From Solitalea canadensis DSM 3403 (GTDB lineage: Bacteria > Bacteroidota > Bacteroidia > Sphingobacteriales > Sphingobacteriaceae): a DNA stretch of 64,000 nt. The position numbers and the translations under genes are program-made. Within the stretch, counting starts at the first letter, position 1. Each line of letters starts with the position of its first letter. The stretch covers positions 434,001-498,000 of the forward strand of contig NC_017770.1 of the NCBI RefSeq assembly GCF_000242635.2. Reading direction: 5' to 3'. This document shows, piece by piece, positions 23,610 to 55,104 of this stretch. The notes beneath the pieces are model-generated. The model was given only the letters and a program-made list of their open reading frames with translations. It searched no databases and was not told the DNA's origin.

Positions 23610-23679
23610 GTTCATGGATCATAGATAATAGTTCTTAGTACAAATAGGTTCTATGAACTATTAACCATAAACTATGATC
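23610..23679. repeat. heptamer inverted-array element 1 (hmgA-hppD gap)
   Basis: Four tandem 7-bp units of GWTCATR type (23610-23637) face four inverted units (23652-23679) across a 14-nt spacer. The right arm runs into the hmgA stop codon. Confidence 0.7.
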
Positions 23680-25162: not shown

Positions 25163-26158
25163 ATGAAGCTAGTAAGCTATAAAACAGAAGGCCAGGAGCA
25201 TTTAGGTGTTTTCAATAACGGTCATATCTACAATTTACATTCATTAAATAAAGCTATTCCTGATAACATCATTGCATTTTTAGAAGGCGGCGATGAGTTA
25301 ATGGACAGGGCTAAACAAATAGATGCTGATATTACAGCAGGAACAATTGATGCGAAGGAAGAAGTTTTCTTTGAATTGCTAGCTCCAGTTCCTCGTCCAA
25401 CTTCATGTCGCGATGGTTATGCTTTCCGCCAGCATGTAGCTTCTGCTCGTCGCAATCGTGGAGTTCCAATGATTCCTGAGTTTGATCAATATCCGATCTT
25501 CTATTTCACTAACCATAATGCTATACAAGGCCCTGGCGACATAGAATGCATGCCCGACCATTTTAAAAAACTTGATTTTGAGTTGGAAATTGCTGTTGTT
25601 ATCGGAAAAAAAGGTAGAAATATAAAAGCTGTGGAAGCCGATGAGTACATTGCCGGCTACATGATCATGAATGATATGAGTGCCCGTACCTTACAAATGG
25701 AAGAGATGTTATTAAATCTTGGTCCTGCAAAAGGAAAGGATTTTTCAACAGTTATAGGTCCGTGGATTGTTACTCCTGATGAATTAGAACCTTATAAAGT
25801 GGCTGCTAAGCCTGGTCACGTAGGTAATAACTATAATTTAAAAATGAAATGTTGGGTAAACGGTAAACAAGTTTCTGAAGGATCCGTAGCCGACATGGAC
25901 TGGACTTTCGCCGAGATCATAGAGCGCTGTGCTTATGGTGTAGATATTTTACCTGGAGATGTTATTGGTTCGGGAACAGTTGGAACCGGATGTTTCCTTG
26001 AACTAAATGGTACCGGCAAATTAAATGATCCTAACTATACCGAACAATGGCTCCAAAACGGCGATATCGTTGAAATGGAAATTACTGCTTTAGGCTCACT
26101 AAGCAATACCATCAAGGCCGTGGAAACTGATTTCTCAATTTTAGGGCTGAAGAAATAA
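25163..26158 (+). CDS. fumarylacetoacetate hydrolase family protein, probable fumarylacetoacetase
   Basis: 331 aa. The FAH catalytic domain shows the metal ligands in FELEIAVVIGKKGRNI (E-x-E) and the later NDMSAR (Asp), plus VIGSGTVGTGCFLELNG near the C-terminus. Family members hydrolyse C-C bonds of beta-diketo acids. Because it sits divergently beside hmgA and hppD, the likely role is the last step of tyrosine degradation to fumarate and acetoacetate. Other FAH-family activities cannot be excluded from sequence alone. Confidence 0.9.
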   Translation: MKLVSYKTEGQEHLGVFNNGHIYNLHSLNKAIPDNIIAFLEGGDELMDRAKQIDADITAGTIDAKEEVFFELLAPVPRPTSCRDGYAFRQHVASARRNRGVPMIPEFDQYPIFYFTNHNAIQGPGDIECMPDHFKKLDFELEIAVVIGKKGRNIKAVEADEYIAGYMIMNDMSARTLQMEEMLLNLGPAKGKDFSTVIGPWIVTPDELEPYKVAAKPGHVGNNYNLKMKCWVNGKQVSEGSVADMDWTFAEIIERCAYGVDILPGDVIGSGTVGTGCFLELNGTGKLNDPNYTEQWLQNGDIVEMEITALGSLSNTIKAVETDFSILGLKK

Positions 26159-26164
26159 TTGCTC

Positions 26165-26686
26165 ATTACGAGTTTCGTGTTGCGGGTTACGGGTTTGTGA
26201 CCTGCAGCACTTATTTTATCATCTAAATTTATGGCTACCTATACTAATTTTGAAGATTTAGAAATATGGAAATCTGCTGCTCTTCTTGCTGAAAAAATAT
26301 ATCTAATTTCTGATGAAATTCCATTGAAGCATGATTTTGGAATGAAAGATCAGATAAGGAGATCTGCTGCTTCCATATCAAATAATATCGCAGAAGGATT
26401 TGAATATGGTAACAATAAAGACTTTATTCGATTTCTAAGATATGCCAAGGGTTCAACAGGCGAATTCCGAAACCAATTGATTTTATTATTTCGAGCCAAT
26501 AAAATAGAAGAATCATTCTATAATAAAATGTATAATGATGCTATTGTACTTGGAAAGATGATTGGGAGTTTTATGAAGTACTTAATTGAATTCGAAAAAC
26601 AAAAAGAACTCAATACTAAAGTGATTTCGGTAAATCGTAATTTTTGAATGTTGTTAATCCGAAATCCGTAACCAACAATTCGTAAT
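26165..26686. repeat. imperfect inverted repeats bounding the four-helix-bundle gene
   Basis: The left flank has ATTACGA (26165-26171) then GGTTACGGGTTT; the right flank reversed has ATTACGA (26686-26680) then GGTTACGGATTT. They bracket only the 138-aa gene, giving a roughly 520-bp unit with inverted ends. No clear target-site duplication was found. Confidence 0.6.
26231..26647 (+). CDS. four helix bundle protein (S23/IVP-like)
   Basis: 138 aa of the small four-helix-bundle family (TIGR02436-like) first known from intervening sequences in 23S rRNA genes and related to Avd of retroelements. Diagnostic stretches are FEDLEIWKSAALLAEKIY, MKDQIRRSAASISNNIAEGF and FLRYAKGSTGEFRNQL. The helices cover nearly the whole chain. 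Such genes lie scattered in Bacteroidota genomes without a settled function. Here it sits inside the tyrosine cluster, flanked by inverted repeats, and looks like an inserted unit. Confidence 0.9.
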   Translation: MATYTNFEDLEIWKSAALLAEKIYLISDEIPLKHDFGMKDQIRRSAASISNNIAEGFEYGNNKDFIRFLRYAKGSTGEFRNQLILLFRANKIEESFYNKMYNDAIVLGKMIGSFMKYLIEFEKQKELNTKVISVNRNF

Positions 26687-26692
26687 TATCAA

Positions 26693-27589
26693 ATGATTTC
26701 CTTCAATTTAAAAGACCTTAAACCATCAGAAGCACAAAGCTATCTGCAACATGCAATAGCACCTCGTCCGATTTGTTTTGCGGCGACGGTGGATGCCGAC
26801 GGTAACCATAATTTAAGTCCGTTTAGTTTTTTCAATTTATTTAGCTCCAATCCGCCTGTTTGTGTGTTTTCTCCCGCGCGACGAGTTCGTGATAATACTA
26901 CTAAACATACGTTAGAAAATGTTAAAGTAGTTCCGGAAGTAGTGATCAATATTGTGAATTATGAAATGGTACAACAAACTTCATTGGCAAGTACTGAATA
27001 TGCGAAAGGAGTAAATGAGTTTGAAAAAGCTGGTTTTACTATGCTTAAATCAGATGTTGTAAGGCCGATGCGTGTAGCAGAATCTCCTGTTCAGTTGGAA
27101 TGTAAAGTTCGGGAGGTAATTTCTCTTGGCAATGAAGGAGGGGCCGGAAACCTAATATTGGCTGAAATTGTAAAAATGCATATTCATGAAAGTGTGATGA
27201 ACGAGTCAGGAAACGGAATTGATCAGGCCAAAATGGATTTAGTTGCACGTTTGGGAGGCGATTGGTATTGCAGAGTAACTGAGCAGAACTTATTTAAAGT
27301 GGCTAAGCCATTAACAACATTAGGGATTGGAGTAGATCAAATTCCTTCAGCGATTCGAAACAGTAAAGTGTTAACCGGAAATAATTTAGGTCAGCTAGGT
27401 AATGTGGAGCATCTTCCATCAGAAGAAGAAGTAGAGACCACCAGGCATCTACCGGAAATCAAAGATATTTTCGACGCTTTCATCGGTGATAAAAACACAC
27501 TGGAGATTCATCTTCATAAAAAAGCAAAAGAACTACTTGATAGCGGTAATGTAGCGGACGCCTGGAAGGTGTTAATGACGCTTGATTAG
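26693..27589 (+). CDS. flavin reductase family protein
   Basis: 298 aa. An FMN-binding split-barrel domain covers about residues 15-200 (APRPICFAATVDADGNHNLSPFSFFNLF near the N-terminus, then PEVVINIVNYEMV). The C-terminal roughly 90 residues are an extension ending in a helical segment (HLHKKAKELLDSGNVADAW). The substrate is unknown; the position downstream of the FAH gene suggests a link to aromatic catabolism. Its ATG lies only seven bases after the right inverted repeat of the four-helix-bundle unit, so its natural leader may have been altered. Confidence 0.85.
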   Translation: MISFNLKDLKPSEAQSYLQHAIAPRPICFAATVDADGNHNLSPFSFFNLFSSNPPVCVFSPARRVRDNTTKHTLENVKVVPEVVINIVNYEMVQQTSLASTEYAKGVNEFEKAGFTMLKSDVVRPMRVAESPVQLECKVREVISLGNEGGAGNLILAEIVKMHIHESVMNESGNGIDQAKMDLVARLGGDWYCRVTEQNLFKVAKPLTTLGIGVDQIPSAIRNSKVLTGNNLGQLGNVEHLPSEEEVETTRHLPEIKDIFDAFIGDKNTLEIHLHKKAKELLDSGNVADAWKVLMTLD

Positions 27590-27660
27590 TCTATAGTTGA
27601 TAGTTCATAGATCATGGTTCATAGTACGTTGCTATGATCCATGAACTATGAACCATGAAC
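27589..27660. repeat. heptamer inverted-array element 2
   Basis: Five 7-bp units (27589-27623) face four inverted units (27633-27660). The inner 21-bp arms 27604-27624 and 27632-27652 match at 19 positions with a 7-nt loop. It starts at the last base of the flavin reductase stop codon. Confidence 0.75.
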
Positions 27661-27718: not shown

Positions 27719-29377
27719 ATGTCATTGTTCGAATCTAAATTCAACCATCCCTATTCTTACGATCCTAAATTTTCTAAACGAGTTGCTTATTTCAGTATGG
27801 AATTTGCCATTGACCAAAGCCTGAAAGTATATTCAGGAGGCCTAGGTTTTTTGGCTGGCTCACACATGCGTAGTGCCTTTGAGCTAAAGCAGAATCTGAT
27901 TGGCATAGGCATTCTATGGAAATATGGATATTATGATCAGATTAGGCAGCAGGATCAATCGATGAATGTACTCTTTCAGGAAAAGGTATATTCTTATTTG
28001 CAGGATACCGGCATTAAGTATACCATTGATGTGAACGGACATCCTGTATGGGTAACGGCTAAATACTTACCGCCACAATTATTCAACTCGGTGCCGATGT
28101 TTTTCCTGACTACTGATCTTCCTGAAAATGACTACCTGGCTCGGTCGATATCATTTCATTTGTATGACGCAGATCTTGCAGCTAAGATTGCTCAGTTTAT
28201 TTTGTTGGGGGTAGGAGGGGCTAAACTATTGGATGAACTTGGTTACAATGCAGAGGTGTATCATTTGAATGAAGCGCATGGTTTGGCCGCAAGCTTTTAC
28301 CTCTATCAAAAATATAAGAAGCTTGAAGAGGTAAAAAAGAGACTTGTGTTTACCACTCACACTCCCGAAGAAGCCGGGAATGAAAAGCATGATATCTACC
28401 TGCTAAACAAAATGGGCTATTTCTGTGGAACTAATTTTGACGAGGTTAAGTTCATTAGTGGCATGCACGACAATATTTTCGATTATTCGCAGGTTGCTAT
28501 GCGATTTGCACGTATCGCCAATGGTGTTTCCGCTTTGCATGGTGAAGTTTCGCGTAAAATGTGGAGTAAATACGAAGGACTATGTCCGATTATATCAATA
28601 ACAAATTCCCAAAACTATACCTATTGGGCGGATAAAGAAATGTATGATGCGTTAAAGACAAGCGACGATGAGCGTTTGGTTAGGCGTAAAAAATACATGA
28701 AAATGCGCTTGTTTGAAACTGTGTCGGATCAGGCTGGTGACTTATATGATCCGAATGTGCTGACTATTGTTTGGGCGCGCCGATTTGCAGGCTATAAACG
28801 CCCCGATTTAATTACTCAAAATCGCGAACGTTTCGAACGACTGATTACCAATAAAAAATACCCCATACAGATTATTTGGGCAGGTAAGCCGTATCCTATG
28901 GATTATGGGGCAATATCTACATTTAATAGTCTGGTGCACCTTTCTAAGGTGTATTCGAATATATCAGTGTTGGTAGGTTATGAGTTAAAACTTTCTAAGA
29001 AGCTAAAATATGGGACCGATATTTGGCTGAACAGTCCTCGCGTGCCACGTGAGGCTTCTGGTACATCAGGAATGACAGCATGTATGAACGGAGCTATCAA
29101 TTTTTCAACTCAAGACGGCTGGATACCAGAGTTTGCTAATGATAAGAACTCATTTTTAATTCCGTTGGCCGATCAATCAAAGTCGATTTCAGATCAGGAT
29201 ACTTCAGATCTGAATAATTTGTATGATATCCTCGAAAACCAGATCATTCCAATGTATTATGAACGTCCTGATGAATGGGTTGCGATGATGAAACGAAGTA
29301 TGACAGATGTACTTCCAGCTTTTGAATCAAATCGGATGGCCACTGAGTATTATGAAAAGTTATACTTGAATTCTTAA
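27719..29377 (+). CDS. alpha-glucan phosphorylase-like protein (GT35 family)
   Basis: 552 aa, the short form of the glycogen/alpha-glucan phosphorylase family. Family landmarks are VAYFSMEFAIDQSLKVYSGG and LGFLAGSHMRSA (N-terminus), VYHLNEAHGLAASF, RFAGYKRPDLI, and PREASGTSGMTACMNG followed by STQDGWIPEF. In canonical enzymes the GTxxMK segment carries the lysine that binds pyridoxal phosphate; here the equivalent position is Thr453. Either this clade uses a different mechanism or it is not a phosphorylase. It ends with a 4-bp tail-to-tail overlap with the next gene. Confidence 0.85.
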   Translation: MSLFESKFNHPYSYDPKFSKRVAYFSMEFAIDQSLKVYSGGLGFLAGSHMRSAFELKQNLIGIGILWKYGYYDQIRQQDQSMNVLFQEKVYSYLQDTGIKYTIDVNGHPVWVTAKYLPPQLFNSVPMFFLTTDLPENDYLARSISFHLYDADLAAKIAQFILLGVGGAKLLDELGYNAEVYHLNEAHGLAASFYLYQKYKKLEEVKKRLVFTTHTPEEAGNEKHDIYLLNKMGYFCGTNFDEVKFISGMHDNIFDYSQVAMRFARIANGVSALHGEVSRKMWSKYEGLCPIISITNSQNYTYWADKEMYDALKTSDDERLVRRKKYMKMRLFETVSDQAGDLYDPNVLTIVWARRFAGYKRPDLITQNRERFERLITNKKYPIQIIWAGKPYPMDYGAISTFNSLVHLSKVYSNISVLVGYELKLSKKLKYGTDIWLNSPRVPREASGTSGMTACMNGAINFSTQDGWIPEFANDKNSFLIPLADQSKSISDQDTSDLNNLYDILENQIIPMYYERPDEWVAMMKRSMTDVLPAFESNRMATEYYEKLYLNS

Positions 29378-29905
29378 GTGCTACGAGAATTCTGCAAATG
29401 GATGTTTCTGAAATCGTCTATTATAGATTCTGTATAATATTCTAATTGTGTCCTATTGATTATGATTGAAGCATACCAAATGATCGGAATAATAAGCCAT
29501 ACAAGTATTAATAAAATTAAGGCATACACACTATAATCCAAAAGAATATTTAATACAAAAGAGATTACGGTAAACACTACTAAAAAAATTAATATAAGTA
29601 GTGAGCCAATTTGACGGTTTTCACTAAGAGGGTTTATTAGTGTATTAATTTTTGTACTTGTATTATCAGGTTCTAGTTGCATTGTAATAATGCCAATCCC
29701 TCTGTTATTGGTAAAAGAATACTTCTCCTTTGAAACTATAATGGTGTTTTCACAAACATTGAACTCCTTGTATTCAATAAGTTTACTCCAAATGAATTCG
29801 TGCAAGCTATTATTTTTTAGTTGCTTTTGCGATTCAATAAAATCTAGAATAACGTTGGATGGTTGGTTAATTATAAAACTTTGATTTGAGTCTACTAAAG
29901 TTCAT
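29374..29905 (-). pseudogene. two-span membrane protein with probable N-terminal frameshift
   Basis: The longest frame (29374-29805) encodes 143 aa from a TTG, with two adjacent membrane helices (about 67-90 and 95-118). The same frame stays open upstream to about 29893 but contains no ATG. An ATG at 29905-29903 opens a frame one base out of register. Removing one A from the run at 29875-29878 joins them into MNFSRLKSKFIINQPSNV followed by the rest. This looks like a one-base indel, either a real mutation or an assembly error. The family is not recognised. Confidence 0.6.
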
Positions 29906-29927: not shown

Positions 29928-30116
29928 CTATTTTTTTAACAAGGCTTCTCTATACGTTCTGCTAACAGATATCTGCTTGTCTCTTATTTGGACAAAACTA
30001 CCTTTTATTGCTTGAAGTTGGTTAAGATTGATAATAAATGATTTATGAACATGTAAGAAGTCTTTTGCAGGCAATGACTTGTGAAAAGGTGAGGAAGTTG
30101 TAATTAAAAGGTTCAT
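29928..30116 (-). pseudogene. LytTR DNA-binding domain remnant
   Basis: A 62-aa frame whose bulk, LPAKDFLHVHKSFIINLNQL then IRDKQISVSRTYREALL, matches the second half of a LytTR DNA-binding domain. The first half of the domain and any receiver domain are missing. The ATG sits in heptamer element 3 and is preceded at once by an in-frame TGA, so the gene was probably cut at this repeat. Expression is unlikely. Confidence 0.75.
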
Positions 30117-30150
30117 AGATCATATTTATATAGGCTATGATCTATGAACC
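30110..30150. repeat. heptamer inverted-array element 3
   Basis: Perfect 15-bp arms (30110-30124 and 30136-30150) made of 7-bp units, with an 11-nt loop. Further related units continue to 30164, where the TAG stop of the M16 gene lies. Confidence 0.75.
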
Positions 30151-30163
30151 ATAATCCCATGAA

Positions 30164-32236
30164 CTATTTAAAATCAGCTTCAGTAACGCCTTCGTTTACT
30201 TTCACTTCTTTTACTTTCATGTCAATTTGTTGTGGCCCGGCAGAAATAGATAAAGAGTGTGGCATAAGAACGCCATTTACTGCTTTATAATCACCATATT
30301 CAATAGATTGAGTCATTTCTTGTCCGGTAGGCAGTTTTATTGTTTCTTCCGATTTAACCAATAAAGAAGAAGTAACATCAAAATACTTATAAGAAGTTTT
30401 TCCGGCAGGAGAGTTGATTTTAACTTTATAAGCATCCTTGTCATTCACCTTCTCAATACCATCAACTAATAAATTAAATTTATCTGCTGTGTAATAAAAC
30501 TCAGGGAAAAGTGTATGCTCTTCTTGCTTTTTCTTTACTTCATCAGCTTCAAACGGATTTTTCTGACCTTGCATCTCATTGTAACCGGTTTTGCCGTCAA
30601 ATACAGATTTCATGATCGTCATGCCGTTGATGCTCATGCTTTGGAATTCTTTATTCGGAACCATTTGTTTAAATAAAGCATTCAACGTCATGCCCTGAAC
30701 CGAGGCTTCAGCATTAATAGCAACCGTTTTTACTGCTTTTACTTTATTTGGCCCACCAATAGCCTGAATGTATTTATCCATTACATTTTGAGGCGAAACA
30801 TTAGAAACCTTCGGAGCAGTTCCTTTTACAATAGGATTTGCATACTTATCGAAGTAATTAACTTTGTAACCTAATTTCTCTAATTTCGGACCTACTTCTG
30901 CTGCTTTGCCAACAACAATGATGCGAGCCTGATTATTCAGGAAATATTTCCTGGCTACACGCTGAATATCTGCAGCGGTAACTGCATTTATTTTTTGCAG
31001 AAATGTTTGATAAAAGTTTTTAGGCAATCCTTCTATTTCAATATTCAGTGCATATTCTGCAATTTTTGCTTTATCCTCCAAGCCCATTGCAAAGCTTCCA
31101 TTGTAGGTGTTTTTTACTAGCTGAATATCGTCTTCACTTGCATTTTCAGAGCCTATACGTTTTATCTCGTTTAATATCTGGATAACAGCACTATCTGCAA
31201 CAGCATTTCTAACACTTGCTGAAGCTCCAAAACGGGCCCCATAACGATTAGAACCTACAGACGAGTAAGAACCATACGTATAACCGTGTTTTTCTCGAAG
31301 ATTTAAGAATAAGTATCCGTTTGAACCTCCACCTAAGATTTGGTTAGCTAAAACTAAAGCGAAATAATCAGGGTTATTTTTAGTGTTATCAACAATGTTG
31401 GTTACAGAAACCTCAGATTGAACGGCATTTGGAACATCAATTAAATCAATTTCAGTTGTCGAAACATTTACAGGTTTCTTTACAGATGGTTCATTTAACG
31501 TTCCAAGCTTCCAATTTCCGAAATACTTAGTTGCTAGTTTTTTAGCATTTTCAAGTTTAATGTCTCCGGTGAAAACTAAATAGGATTTATTAGGGACAAA
31601 CTGTGCTTTATACGCTGATTTAACATCATCAAGTTTAATTCCGTTTAGCTTCTCTTCTGTTTCAAATTCACCAAAAGGGTGATCTGTGCCATAGACTAAA
31701 GCAGAAACAACTCTCCCTGATATGGCTTTTGCACTTTTTTCACCTGACTTTAATCCAGTGATAGCTTGCGACTTAATTTTATCAAAAGACTCCTGTGGGA
31801 ATGCCGGATTTAAAGTTGCATCAGCCATTAACTCAAATGCTTTATCAAAGTATTTCGTTAATGCTGAAGCCGAAGCTCCATTAGCCGAAGCACTTACATT
31901 TGCACCCATAAAATCTACTTCCTCATCAAATTTAGCTTTTGATCGGGTGGTAGTTCCTTCGTTCATCATCGCACTCATTAAGCCTGAAGTCCCGGCTTTA
32001 CTACCTTCAAGTTTAGGGACCCGATCAAGCATTAAGCTAGCTGAAACTGTGGGTAATTTGTGGTCTTCAACAACTAAAACCTTCATGCCGTTAGGAAGCG
32101 TAAAAGTTTGCGGCTGACCAATGTTGATAACCGGAGCAGGTCCTGCTGCAGGTTTGTGTGTTCTGTCTATTGTTTGTGCTAGAGTAGAGGTAATGATAAA
32201 TGCTACTGTAGCTACACTTAAAAATATCTTTTTCAT
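30164..32236 (-). CDS. M16-family peptidase-like protein, non-catalytic partner
   Basis: 690 aa with signal peptide (KKIFLSVATVAFIITSTLAQ). Two pitrilysin-type half-domains cover about residues 35-480, but the zinc motif HxxEH is missing where expected (LEGSKAGTSGLMSAMMNEG). The C-terminal roughly 200 residues (from about DKYIQAIGGPNKVKAV) form a beta-rich domain like those of periplasmic lipid- or lipoprotein-handling proteins. It lies 21 bp after the active M16 gene; the two probably form a periplasmic heterodimer, as known for other M16B pairs. Confidence 0.88.
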   Translation of the reverse strand: MKKIFLSVATVAFIITSTLAQTIDRTHKPAAGPAPVINIGQPQTFTLPNGMKVLVVEDHKLPTVSASLMLDRVPKLEGSKAGTSGLMSAMMNEGTTTRSKAKFDEEVDFMGANVSASANGASASALTKYFDKAFELMADATLNPAFPQESFDKIKSQAITGLKSGEKSAKAISGRVVSALVYGTDHPFGEFETEEKLNGIKLDDVKSAYKAQFVPNKSYLVFTGDIKLENAKKLATKYFGNWKLGTLNEPSVKKPVNVSTTEIDLIDVPNAVQSEVSVTNIVDNTKNNPDYFALVLANQILGGGSNGYLFLNLREKHGYTYGSYSSVGSNRYGARFGASASVRNAVADSAVIQILNEIKRIGSENASEDDIQLVKNTYNGSFAMGLEDKAKIAEYALNIEIEGLPKNFYQTFLQKINAVTAADIQRVARKYFLNNQARIIVVGKAAEVGPKLEKLGYKVNYFDKYANPIVKGTAPKVSNVSPQNVMDKYIQAIGGPNKVKAVKTVAINAEASVQGMTLNALFKQMVPNKEFQSMSINGMTIMKSVFDGKTGYNEMQGQKNPFEADEVKKKQEEHTLFPEFYYTADKFNLLVDGIEKVNDKDAYKVKINSPAGKTSYKYFDVTSSLLVKSEETIKLPTGQEMTQSIEYGDYKAVNGVLMPHSLSISAGPQQIDMKVKEVKVNEGVTEADFK

Positions 32237-39389: not shown

Positions 39390-39408
39390 TTTACTGTAAT
39401 TTTTATAG

Positions 39409-39512
39409 TTCTCATCCTGAAAATCAGGGTTGAGCAGGAGTTGGCACCTTTCCGGTATCGGCGGTTGCCAGAGGGTCACAGAGCCTGTTCTCTCGCCTCT
39501 TCTTTATAAGAA
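39409..39512 (-). ncRNA. SAM-I riboswitch (S-box) upstream of metY
   Basis: Read on the minus strand, P1 TTCTTAT (39512-39506) pairs with ATGAGAA (39415-39409). Between them are the S-box landmarks: AAGAAGAGGCGAGAG, a TGA kink-turn side, TGGCAACC, AAGGTGCCAACTCCTGC and the closing GATGAGAA. The aptamer binds S-adenosylmethionine and should repress metY-metX when SAM is high. No clear terminator follows the aptamer, so control may act on translation or on the leader ORF just downstream. Confidence 0.93.
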
Positions 39513-43263: not shown

Positions 43264-43291
43264 GTTCATGGTTAATGGTTCATAGATCGGT
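43264..43291. repeat. heptamer half-element 4 (gldF-gldG gap)
   Basis: Four tandem 7-bp units of GWTCATR type in direct orientation between gldF and gldG. No facing arm is present. Confidence 0.5.
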
Positions 43292-54903: not shown

Positions 54904-54911
54904 TAATAAAA

Positions 54912-55071
54912 GTTCATAGATCATAGTTTATAGATCATAGTTCATGGTTCATAGATCATGGATAGATAATAGTTCAGGGGCAAGGTTTGAATAACCATAT
55001 ACAATAACTCCTGAACTATTATTTTTGGGGTTAGGTTATAGACCATGAACCATGATCTATGAACCATGATC
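54912..55071. repeat. heptamer inverted-array element 5 (largest copy)
   Basis: Seven perfect-phase 7-bp units of GWTCATR type (54912-54960) face five inverted units (55037-55071). A nested 11-bp stem AATAGTTCAGG/CCTGAACTATT lies inside the loop. It fills most of the gap between the hydroxylase and SDR genes and has no ORF. Confidence 0.85.
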
Positions 55072-55104
55072 TAAAACCCCATAACTATACACAATTAACT
55101 AAAT

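Follow-up and report, generated by a model that had tools for sequence, protein, structure and literature searches.

Facing arrays of seven-nucleotide units in the genome of Solitalea canadensis and their possible kinship with intervening sequences bearing an S23p gene

The window considered here, i.e., the whole stretch of 64,000 nucleotides of the genome of Solitalea canadensis DSM 3403 that was analysed, holds between its protein genes, and outside 23S rRNA genes, several elements built from tandem 7-nt units of the type GWTCATR. As put forward in the initial annotation, facing arms of such in-phase heptamers are present at four loci of the window and a single arm at a fifth. Element E possesses a left arm of seven in-phase units (54912..54960, + strand; GTTCATA GATCATA GTTTATA GATCATA GTTCATG GTTCATA GATCATG), six rather than all of which correspond exactly to GWTCATR, the exception being GTTTATA, and a right arm of five facing heptamers (55037..55071, - strand), where the count given initially stands but exact units are limited to four. 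Between the arms (54968..55020), the pair AATAGTTCAGG/CCTGAACTATT and its loop constitute the nested stem previously described in the spacer, and the region as a whole (54905-55078) has a computed fold with an MFE of -66.6 and a z of -9.3 respective to dinucleotide shuffles. The same plan recurs with differing unit numbers at 23610-23679, 27589-27660 and 30110-30164, namely (i) element A, with 4 units on each arm (23610..23637, + strand; 23652..23679, - strand), (ii) element B, with a left arm of 5 units starting at the stop of gene 26693-27589 (27589..27623, + strand) and a right arm of 4 units (27633..27660, - strand), and (iii) element C, with a left arm of 2 units (30111..30124, + strand) and a right arm of 4 units, the innermost degenerate, with 7 bp between it and the stop codon of gene 30164-32236 (30129..30156, - strand). 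Several units in the arms of elements A to D are degenerate, e.g., GTTCTTA or GCCTATA. Hairpin energy is well below that of dinucleotide shuffles for A, B and C (z -4.8, -7.7 and -5.5, respectively), whereas the lone arm D, 3 units without partner (43264..43284, + strand), does not fold into a hairpin (z -0.1). With respect to periodicity, E, B and A are the three foremost of the 37 intergenic regions of at least 35 bp in the window, all with period 7, C ranking far lower (z 1.9), and the two-unit pattern with at most 2 mismatches has 49 matches in the window vs. 12.9 expected. Compared by eye with the syntenic genome G002, to which this comparison was limited, loci A-D have no heptamer elements there; at locus E, a heptamer element is present in all four genomes of the genus, the units being chiefly of GTCCAT type in the three besides the source genome. 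Of note, two ORFs between B and C (27719-29805) were not found at the matching place in the otherwise syntenic G002, which exhibits an 840-bp gap, so that gene content changes between these two elements. The window also contains an ordinary SAM riboswitch (39400-39512, - strand, 71.2 bits).

Across the single contig of 5.2 Mb that makes up the genome, 70 exact matches to the three-unit pattern were counted (27 forward and 43 reverse) against 0 for the reversed control, and a 15-mer with at most one mismatch has 243 matches vs. 1 in the control. Within the 343 kb that were scanned, chosen mostly around pattern matches and including the window, 155 arrays were found in 45 clusters, where five shuffles gave 5-8 arrays. 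The initial view of a family that is scattered over the genome, forms hairpins, keeps to phase 7 and varies in its number of units is supported. The arms of these arrays normally face inward and commonly hold units other than GWTCATR, e.g., GTTGAT, GTTAAT or GTCCAT, one long array counts fifteen in-phase units (G000:2182672-2182776), and in five clean cases GTCCATR arms are nested inside GTTCATR arms. In L239 (G001:C10, 3713-4232), these units also build a tandem array of higher order, where a heptamer block is present five times in direct orientation, with a spacing of 100 bp in three instances and of 185 bp in the fourth.

Relatives were found in Mucilaginibacter, Saprospiraceae, Chitinophagaceae, Prevotella and Cyanobacteria. 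Those with closely spaced arms (at least 120 loci, 80 of them listed with names) follow one plan, i.e., A-GTTCATR-GTTGATR-GTTCATR-GTTCATR-G, a loop and the mirror image; by eye, Mucilaginibacter and Saprospiraceae have this plan in common, and less strict forms of it are present in Chitinophagaceae, Prevotella, a Bacillota MAG and two cyanobacteria. Among the matches listed, four units on each arm is the commonest form (46/120 by tolerant count, 30/124 by exact runs), and the median loop length is 17 nt among those listed from at least 120 loci. In 30 genomes behind relative loci, the two-unit pattern has between 3 and 656 matches, roughly balanced between strands, against 0-3 for the control; as the three-unit pattern is matched in only 8 of 119 relatives of the source genome, the distribution is patchy. 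Besides GTTCAT, other unit families with period 7, 8 or 9 exist: in 359 intergenic regions of the same loci lacking a GTTCAT element, self-identity peaks at lags 7, 14 and 21, and also at 8, 16, 9 and 18, when coding and shuffled sequence give no peak at these lags. Thirty-five of these regions pass z>5, with a best period of 7 (16 regions), 8 (12), 9 (6) or 6 (1), and in 27 of the 35 at least 30% of bases lie in inverted repeats. The reversed control pattern itself (TACTWGR heptamers) matches in G023, G043, G065, G072, G087 and G090, possibly as another heptamer family, and the hairpin at L146:7064-7114 lies within an additional inverted repeat, perfect and about 35 nt long, which may be an artefact of MAG assembly.

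How such arms arise could be accounted for by local mutation only, with slippage adding units and template switching in a quasi-palindrome copying them to the facing arm, no mobile element being involved. Arrays as long as 15 units, a mirrored non-heptamer insert in both arms of L137 and the intergrading of unit types within arms all agree with such a process. On the contrary, the same unit families amount to tens to hundreds of pattern matches in many genomes of different phyla, the family found at a given site tracks the repertoire of its genome (see below), and arms are not homogenised, unit position 7 being anti-correlated between them (z -3.6). Over L070-L189, with related loci kept in, the same position (A/G) also alternates within arms (z -4.6); the two patterns look as though repeats and palindromes that are perfect had been removed. 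Local mutation as the whole story is considered improbable. Slippage, initially proposed as the mode of growth, probably acts at some loci, as with the fifteen units mentioned above, but is unsupported as sole origin since identical families of units turn up again at numerous sites, also of genomes that are unrelated, an arm commonly counts four units and the site family tracks the genome repertoire. As a proof of pairing, arm-to-arm covariation was considered and discarded as weak, being absent at register 0 with position 7 anti-correlated; the unit types of the two arms match above permutation only with the best of five registers (p 0.0015 and 0.0005).

Regarding position, all 40 elements of the source genome above the score cut-off are intergenic according to ORF-based gene calls, usually a few bases from a stop codon, and divide into 28 tandem, 10 convergent and 2 divergent gaps vs. 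140, 30 and 41 among background gaps. In named relative loci, 124 elements comprise 68 in tandem, 30 in convergent and 16 in divergent gaps, 2 in an ORF and 8 at an edge, with divergent gaps depleted (p 0.04) and convergent ones enriched (p 0.009), and elements are separated from a gene 3' end by a median of 6 nt (128 ends) and from a 5' end by a median of 23 nt. Such proximity to 3' ends speaks for host features, namely RNA 3'-end structures (termination boundary or mRNA stabiliser, REP-like) under selection, for which any hairpin would serve, the family drifting or being replaced, and a link with PF05635 genes (see below) would be secondary. Similarly, out of seven orthologous sites without a GTTCAT element, six carry by eye another repeat or hairpin, i.e., octamers, GC-rich palindromes and two ordinary stems, and one nothing evident, which favours a tolerated or useful 3' hairpin. 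Against this, no consistent T-run was seen by eye behind the right arms in the sequences viewed, several being followed by A, and a terminator scan restricted to loops of 3-8 nt lists none of A, B, C and E, D lying outside the scanned stretches; within these limits, a reading of the heptamer hairpins as intrinsic terminators, which would have a GC-rich stem with a U-run behind it, finds no support. At locus E, moreover, eleven genomes of other genera with the same kind of following gene have a gap of about 0-70 bp with no heptamers by eye.

The turnover of unit families was considered behind hisIE in Mucilaginibacter, a site chosen because several relative loci had an element there. A match to hisIE was obtained in 58 of 61 genomes, and in 57 of these (G152 dropped) the stretch following the stop codon could be resolved; 43 of the 57 hold heptamer repeats of eight unit families, as labelled by eye (GTTCAT 10, GTCCAT 14, GTTTGCA 11, five others 8), mostly as facing arms with few direct, one-armed or remnant cases; in the remainder, six exhibit two other palindromes and eight are either empty (six) or unclear (two). 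On a tree of the flanking genes, obtained by a quick method with 18/54 inner branches well supported, the family label needs 32 changes and the presence or absence of heptamers only 6. At this one site, the unit changes fast and the design stays. The allele of G177 resembles that of G174 and the allele of G162 that of G165, when flanks instead pair G177 with G162, and some of the family changes thus correspond to allele exchange between species. The family at the site also tracks the genome-wide share of that family (F1 0.77 vs. 0.29, F2 0.74 vs. 0.25, F3 0.26 vs. 0.06), with a permutation p<=1e-4 (site removed, kinship ignored) and the dominant family being the site family in 22/35 genomes; corrected for phylogeny, the test comes down to 4 usable pairs, 3 for, 0 against and 1 tie (p 0.25). 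A fold z<=-2 is found in 37/41 heptamer sites tested vs. 0/6 tested sites without heptamers. The persistence of the design and the strength of folding fit a host 3' structure, but the six empty sites do not, and such a reading leaves the shared unit families, the period of 7 and the enclosed gene unexplained; on the whole, it is held to be doubtful, if the least so of the alternatives. At or near the 3' end of hisIE in G182, G192, G164 and G190 (L313, L315, L317 and L318) lies a GC-rich palindrome of the CCCCCTTTAGGGGG type, and HisIE ends in these genomes with an extension such as APQPPKGG, which such a palindrome could encode; G180 and G171 have a CATTGCGAGG..GAAGCAATC palindrome at this site.

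Elements moved by a RAYT (Y1) transposase in the manner of REPINs were also envisaged, given a similar anatomy of two inverted arms in intergenic DNA. Over 61 genomes, the number of Y1_Tnp matches correlates weakly with that of heptamer matches (rho 0.35, p 0.006; 0.34 for F1 and 0.43 for F3, only 0.10 for the GTCCAT family), and a Y1_Tnp gene is located 1.5 kb away from one heptamer element, a further gene separating the two. The source genome possesses two RAYT-type genes (G000:2708920-2709261 and 5116803-5117147, i.e., L222 and L223; L190:4884-5260), the first of which is preceded by copies of another palindrome, CCGTTGGTT..AACCAACGG, likely an ordinary REP family of this genome. As to the linked RAYT to be looked for according to the initial annotation, the 3.3-kb loci of both Y1_Tnp genes are free of heptamer arrays, and genomes as rich in heptamers as G170 (115 matches) and G201 (69 matches) have no Y1_Tnp match. 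On these grounds, RAYT/REPIN mobilisation was rejected and its residual probability is taken to be very small. The initial distinction from REP is in line with these heptamer-free RAYT loci; the distinction from MITEs has become doubtful, because the same arms enclose a PF05635 gene elsewhere, so that the hairpins look like gene-less derivatives.

In the window itself, a gene of 138 aa belonging to PF05635 (23S rRNA intervening-sequence protein, four-helix bundle; Pfam E 1.8e-33) is found at 26231..26647 (+ strand). It is preceded by a left arm of another unit family (26172..26199, + strand; GTTTCGT GTTGCGG GTTACGG GTTTGTG), located 13 bp downstream of the stop codon of gene 25163-26158, and followed by facing heptamers (26648..26692, - strand; in reverse complement GTTACGG ATTTCGG ATTAACA). 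The duplex of 26648-26692 with the left arm 26172-26199 is computed at -35.6 kcal/mol and the left-arm region 26159-26212 folds alone with z -5.6, but these arms are weak, with a period z of 1.3 and 0.8 and an inverted-repeat p of 0.085. In the syntenic G002, the PF05635 gene is missing at that place and the short gap holds an ordinary inverted repeat. The single-sequence model of the protein (mean pLDDT 82.5) has as closest structures S23p 2gsc, which is XCC0516 of Xanthomonas campestris, and 2rld (E 2e-5 to 9e-4); a fold match of this model to Avd was dismissed, with an E of 0.1-0.4 no better than that of unrelated helical bundles, and with Pfam bAvd-like, L169 scores above the cut-off, L341 and L371 below.

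Among 3973 ORFs of the loci other than L001-L069, three are PF05635-type genes, and all three lie by eye between facing heptamer arms of different families, namely that of the window at 26231, L169 (GTTGGCA) and L241 (GTTCATA). A prediction set beforehand, i.e., that facing arms 400-500 bp apart enclose a PF05635 gene, was positive for four of five pairs picked by eye from among the matches listed (L341, L342, L344 and L345, PF05635 gene E 5e-39 to 3e-46); the fifth pair, L343, contains no PF05635-type ORF. None of the nine other loci compared alongside has such a gene, including L350, where GTTCAT arms about 420 bp apart surround a nested GTCCAT hairpin without a gene. In L344, whose right arm is situated outside the 90 nt tested, inverted repeats fall short of significance (p 0.6). 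Arms of F1, F2 and F3 were all seen around PF05635 genes, and by eye the two F3 copies share a protein subtype as well as a site between gmk and nadD, when F1 and F2 copies are of another subtype. For the four-helix-bundle gene of L169 and L341, located between gmk and nadD (neighbours by eye), the same named neighbours are mentioned in the accessible part of a report on Flavobacterium columnare (PMC5524665). As L241 and the four predicted loci were discovered through their arms, the copies free of that bias are those of the window, L169 and the plasmids; Pfam was run on 10 of the 25 PF05635-type genes, all 10 being PF05635, and the others were assigned by similarity to those.

By protein similarity to the gene of L241, relatives were retrieved on 26 plasmids, the majority belonging to cyanobacteria such as Nostoc and Calothrix, of which 18 records were examined. 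Their flanks hold units such as GGGAGTA, GGGTGTA, AGGAGTC or TAAAAGC, and 7 is the best period in 24/36 flanks vs. a base rate of 0.212 (127/600 control flanks; p 5e-9) and 5/22 flanks of neighbouring plasmid genes, a period z>3 being reached in 13/36 plasmid flanks vs. 2/27 in the control. Inverted repeats at p<=0.05 flank 10 of 18 plasmid genes vs. 2 of 17 neighbouring plasmid genes, as well as 5 of 7 chromosomal copies, hence 15/25 in total vs. 20/300 control ORFs (Fisher 2e-10); by eye, arms are not convincingly facing in L356, L357 and L367, and L358, L362 and L363 have one short arm. Some PF05635-like genes of cyanobacterial plasmids sit in CRISPR-Cas operons (L356, L359 and L372), either between cas6 and cas4 (L356 and L359) or between cas10 and a Cmr3-family gene. 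Among these copies, that of Azospirillum, L368, the only one shown to be so placed, lies inside 23S rRNA (2156.6 bits) with left-arm units GACGGAT GACAGAG GACGGAG GACAGAA, and is an intervening sequence (IVS) with the same heptamer arm design. No relatives of the PF05635-type protein appeared in the viral collection, and carriage of the GTTCATR unit by phages or plasmids was not retained as a lead, with weak matches only (E 0.1-0.6).

It could be argued that PF05635 genes and heptamer hairpins are separate entities sharing hot spots, genes being caught between two hairpins by chance or recombination. Ordinary genes can indeed sit between two elements, since in L373 (Prevotella MAG) arms about 700 bp apart flank an unrelated ORF, and several palindrome families share the hisIE site. 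Nonetheless, the excess of inverted flanks around PF05635-type genes over control ORFs, the subtype shared by the two F3 copies at one site and the copy inside 23S rRNA, which is away from any intergenic hot spot and yet has heptamer arms of its own, make mere cohabitation hard to credit.

Altogether, the explanation towards which we lean, somewhat beyond an even chance, is that the hairpins represent the gene-less form of a family of IVS-type hairpin elements, small and selfish. In complete form, such an element would consist of an arm, a PF05635 gene (S23p, possibly Avd-like four-helix bundle) and a facing arm, with an arm commonly made up of some four 7-nt units in tandem (8 or 9 nt in some families) and a transcript expected to fold into a stem of about 28 bp. 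Gene-less copies would retain both arms around a loop that is short and variable, much like MITEs, in which the transposon ends persist. Elements would settle just behind stop codons, and probably also in the loops of existing hairpins, at sites where an RNA stem may be harmless or useful as mRNA 3' structure, and RNase III could cut the stem there by analogy with IVSs in 23S rRNA. What is observed is the architecture, the position, the several unit families, their turnover at one site and the presence of PF05635 genes between heptamer arms; as regards movement and function, we infer that the hairpins derive from copies with the gene, that the protein assists in moving them and that RNase III cuts them. 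The reading of the hairpins as gene-less IVS-type elements draws on (i) the shared arms, (ii) the start of the interior of the gene-bearing element L342, GTAGCTGC, which recurs in hairpin loops (AGCTGC; this motif is present in 9/120 loops among the matches listed vs. a mean of 0.47 in shuffles), and (iii) the nested cases, GTCCATR arms within GTTCATR arms being expected if loops are targets, as described for IVSs in 23S rRNA in the available text of PMC4990558. Presence or absence between species was seen, and no clean empty site with target duplication was found. A distant resemblance to Avd would make a reverse transcriptase an attractive candidate partner. One step further, a single superfamily of selfish elements with RNA hairpins might take in the STRR-type heptamer hairpins found in Cyanobacteria and in Bacteroidota, the repeats of Xanthomonas and the IVSs of 23S rRNA, and in it an S23p/Avd-like pentamer would read the units in phase, about one per subunit, thereby fixing period and arm length, and would deliver the RNA to a trans-acting reverse transcriptase inserting it into hairpin loops and gene ends; this extension is put forward as a speculation that we deem unlikely.

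According to the available portion of PMC4990558, the functionality and origin of IVSs are still unclear after 25 years and S23p proteins are without known function. Heptamer repeats of several phyla likewise lack an explanation, and the two puzzles may concern one kind of selfish element. If the hairpins are gene-less S23p elements, an origin is at hand for many intergenic hairpins of Bacteroidota and Cyanobacteria that so far lack an explanation, and the questions of IVSs and heptamer repeats become testable with one genome set.

With respect to known systems, the statement that the GWTCATR unit belongs to no named family agrees with the literature searched, most subscription journals being outside its coverage, where neither such a family nor a title or abstract start linking heptamer arms to S23p was found, nor any of six array strings in full text. 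Reportedly, as cited in PMC4692102, STRR heptamers were described in Calothrix by Mazel et al. Heptamer repeats forming facing pairs or hairpins are already published for Xanthomonas and cyanobacteria (PMC4692102, PMC2670836, as far as the available texts go), so that heptamer hairpins as such are known and their link with a PF05635 gene is new. In filamentous cyanobacteria, STRRs are usually 7-bp tandem units between genes, capable of forming hairpins (PMC2670836, excerpt), and the present elements likewise consist of 7-bp tandem units in intergenic DNA; a link to PF05635 does not figure in that excerpt, whereas the plasmid loci of Nostoc, Calothrix and relatives have heptamer flanks around the gene. 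The GGGAATC repeats of Xanthomonas, mostly of four units, with 70 and 75 convergent pairs in two genomes, are mostly intergenic, nearer the preceding ORF and few between divergent genes (Rehm 2015, PMC4692102, accessible part). There, they are read as G-quadruplexes, without a link to a gene in that part, but GTTCAT units contain no G-run of three and yet commonly come in fours, so that a quadruplex cannot be the general reason for four units and the quadruplex reading of four-unit arrays is weakened. TAACTGA repeats, patchy heptamer arrays of Beggiatoaceae, Cyanobacteria and five Bacteroidetes, thus partly of the same phyla, have a reverse complement that, shifted in phase, reads GTTATCA, and this unit is also present behind hisIE in one Mucilaginibacter genome (G155), but they differ in being direct and, in the Maribeggiatoa genome, mostly upstream of start codons (PMC4679880, excerpt).

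Like REPs and REPINs, heptamer elements are inverted intergenic palindromes; unlike them, they have tandem-unit arms and no direct link with a RAYT. REPs and REPINs, too, lie behind stop codons. In the available text of PMC3733652, a REP is a single palindrome of 20-40 bp with a conserved tag at one end, whereas the arms here are tandem 7-mers with a sequence differing between families. As with MITEs, ends are shared with a gene-bearing element, F1, F2 and F3 arms surrounding PF05635 genes, the role of transposase being putative for the encoded protein. The foldback (FB) transposons of eukaryotes also have inverted arms of short tandem units around variable middles, a resemblance only, these being far larger and in other hosts. 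A parallel also exists with the 23S rRNA IVS holding an S23p ORF, a selfish stem-loop with terminal inverted repeats and a PF05635/S23p gene inside, described as replacing small hairpin loops and with a 28-bp stem in Coxiella (PMC4990558, available part): except for the one-armed D, the heptamer elements have terminal inverted repeats forming a stem, and the gene lies inside the 7 chromosomal and 18 plasmid gene-bearing copies and is absent from gene-less hairpins, but unlike IVSs they are numerous, mostly gene-less and found at gene ends, L368 alone having been shown to share with IVSs the location inside 23S rRNA.
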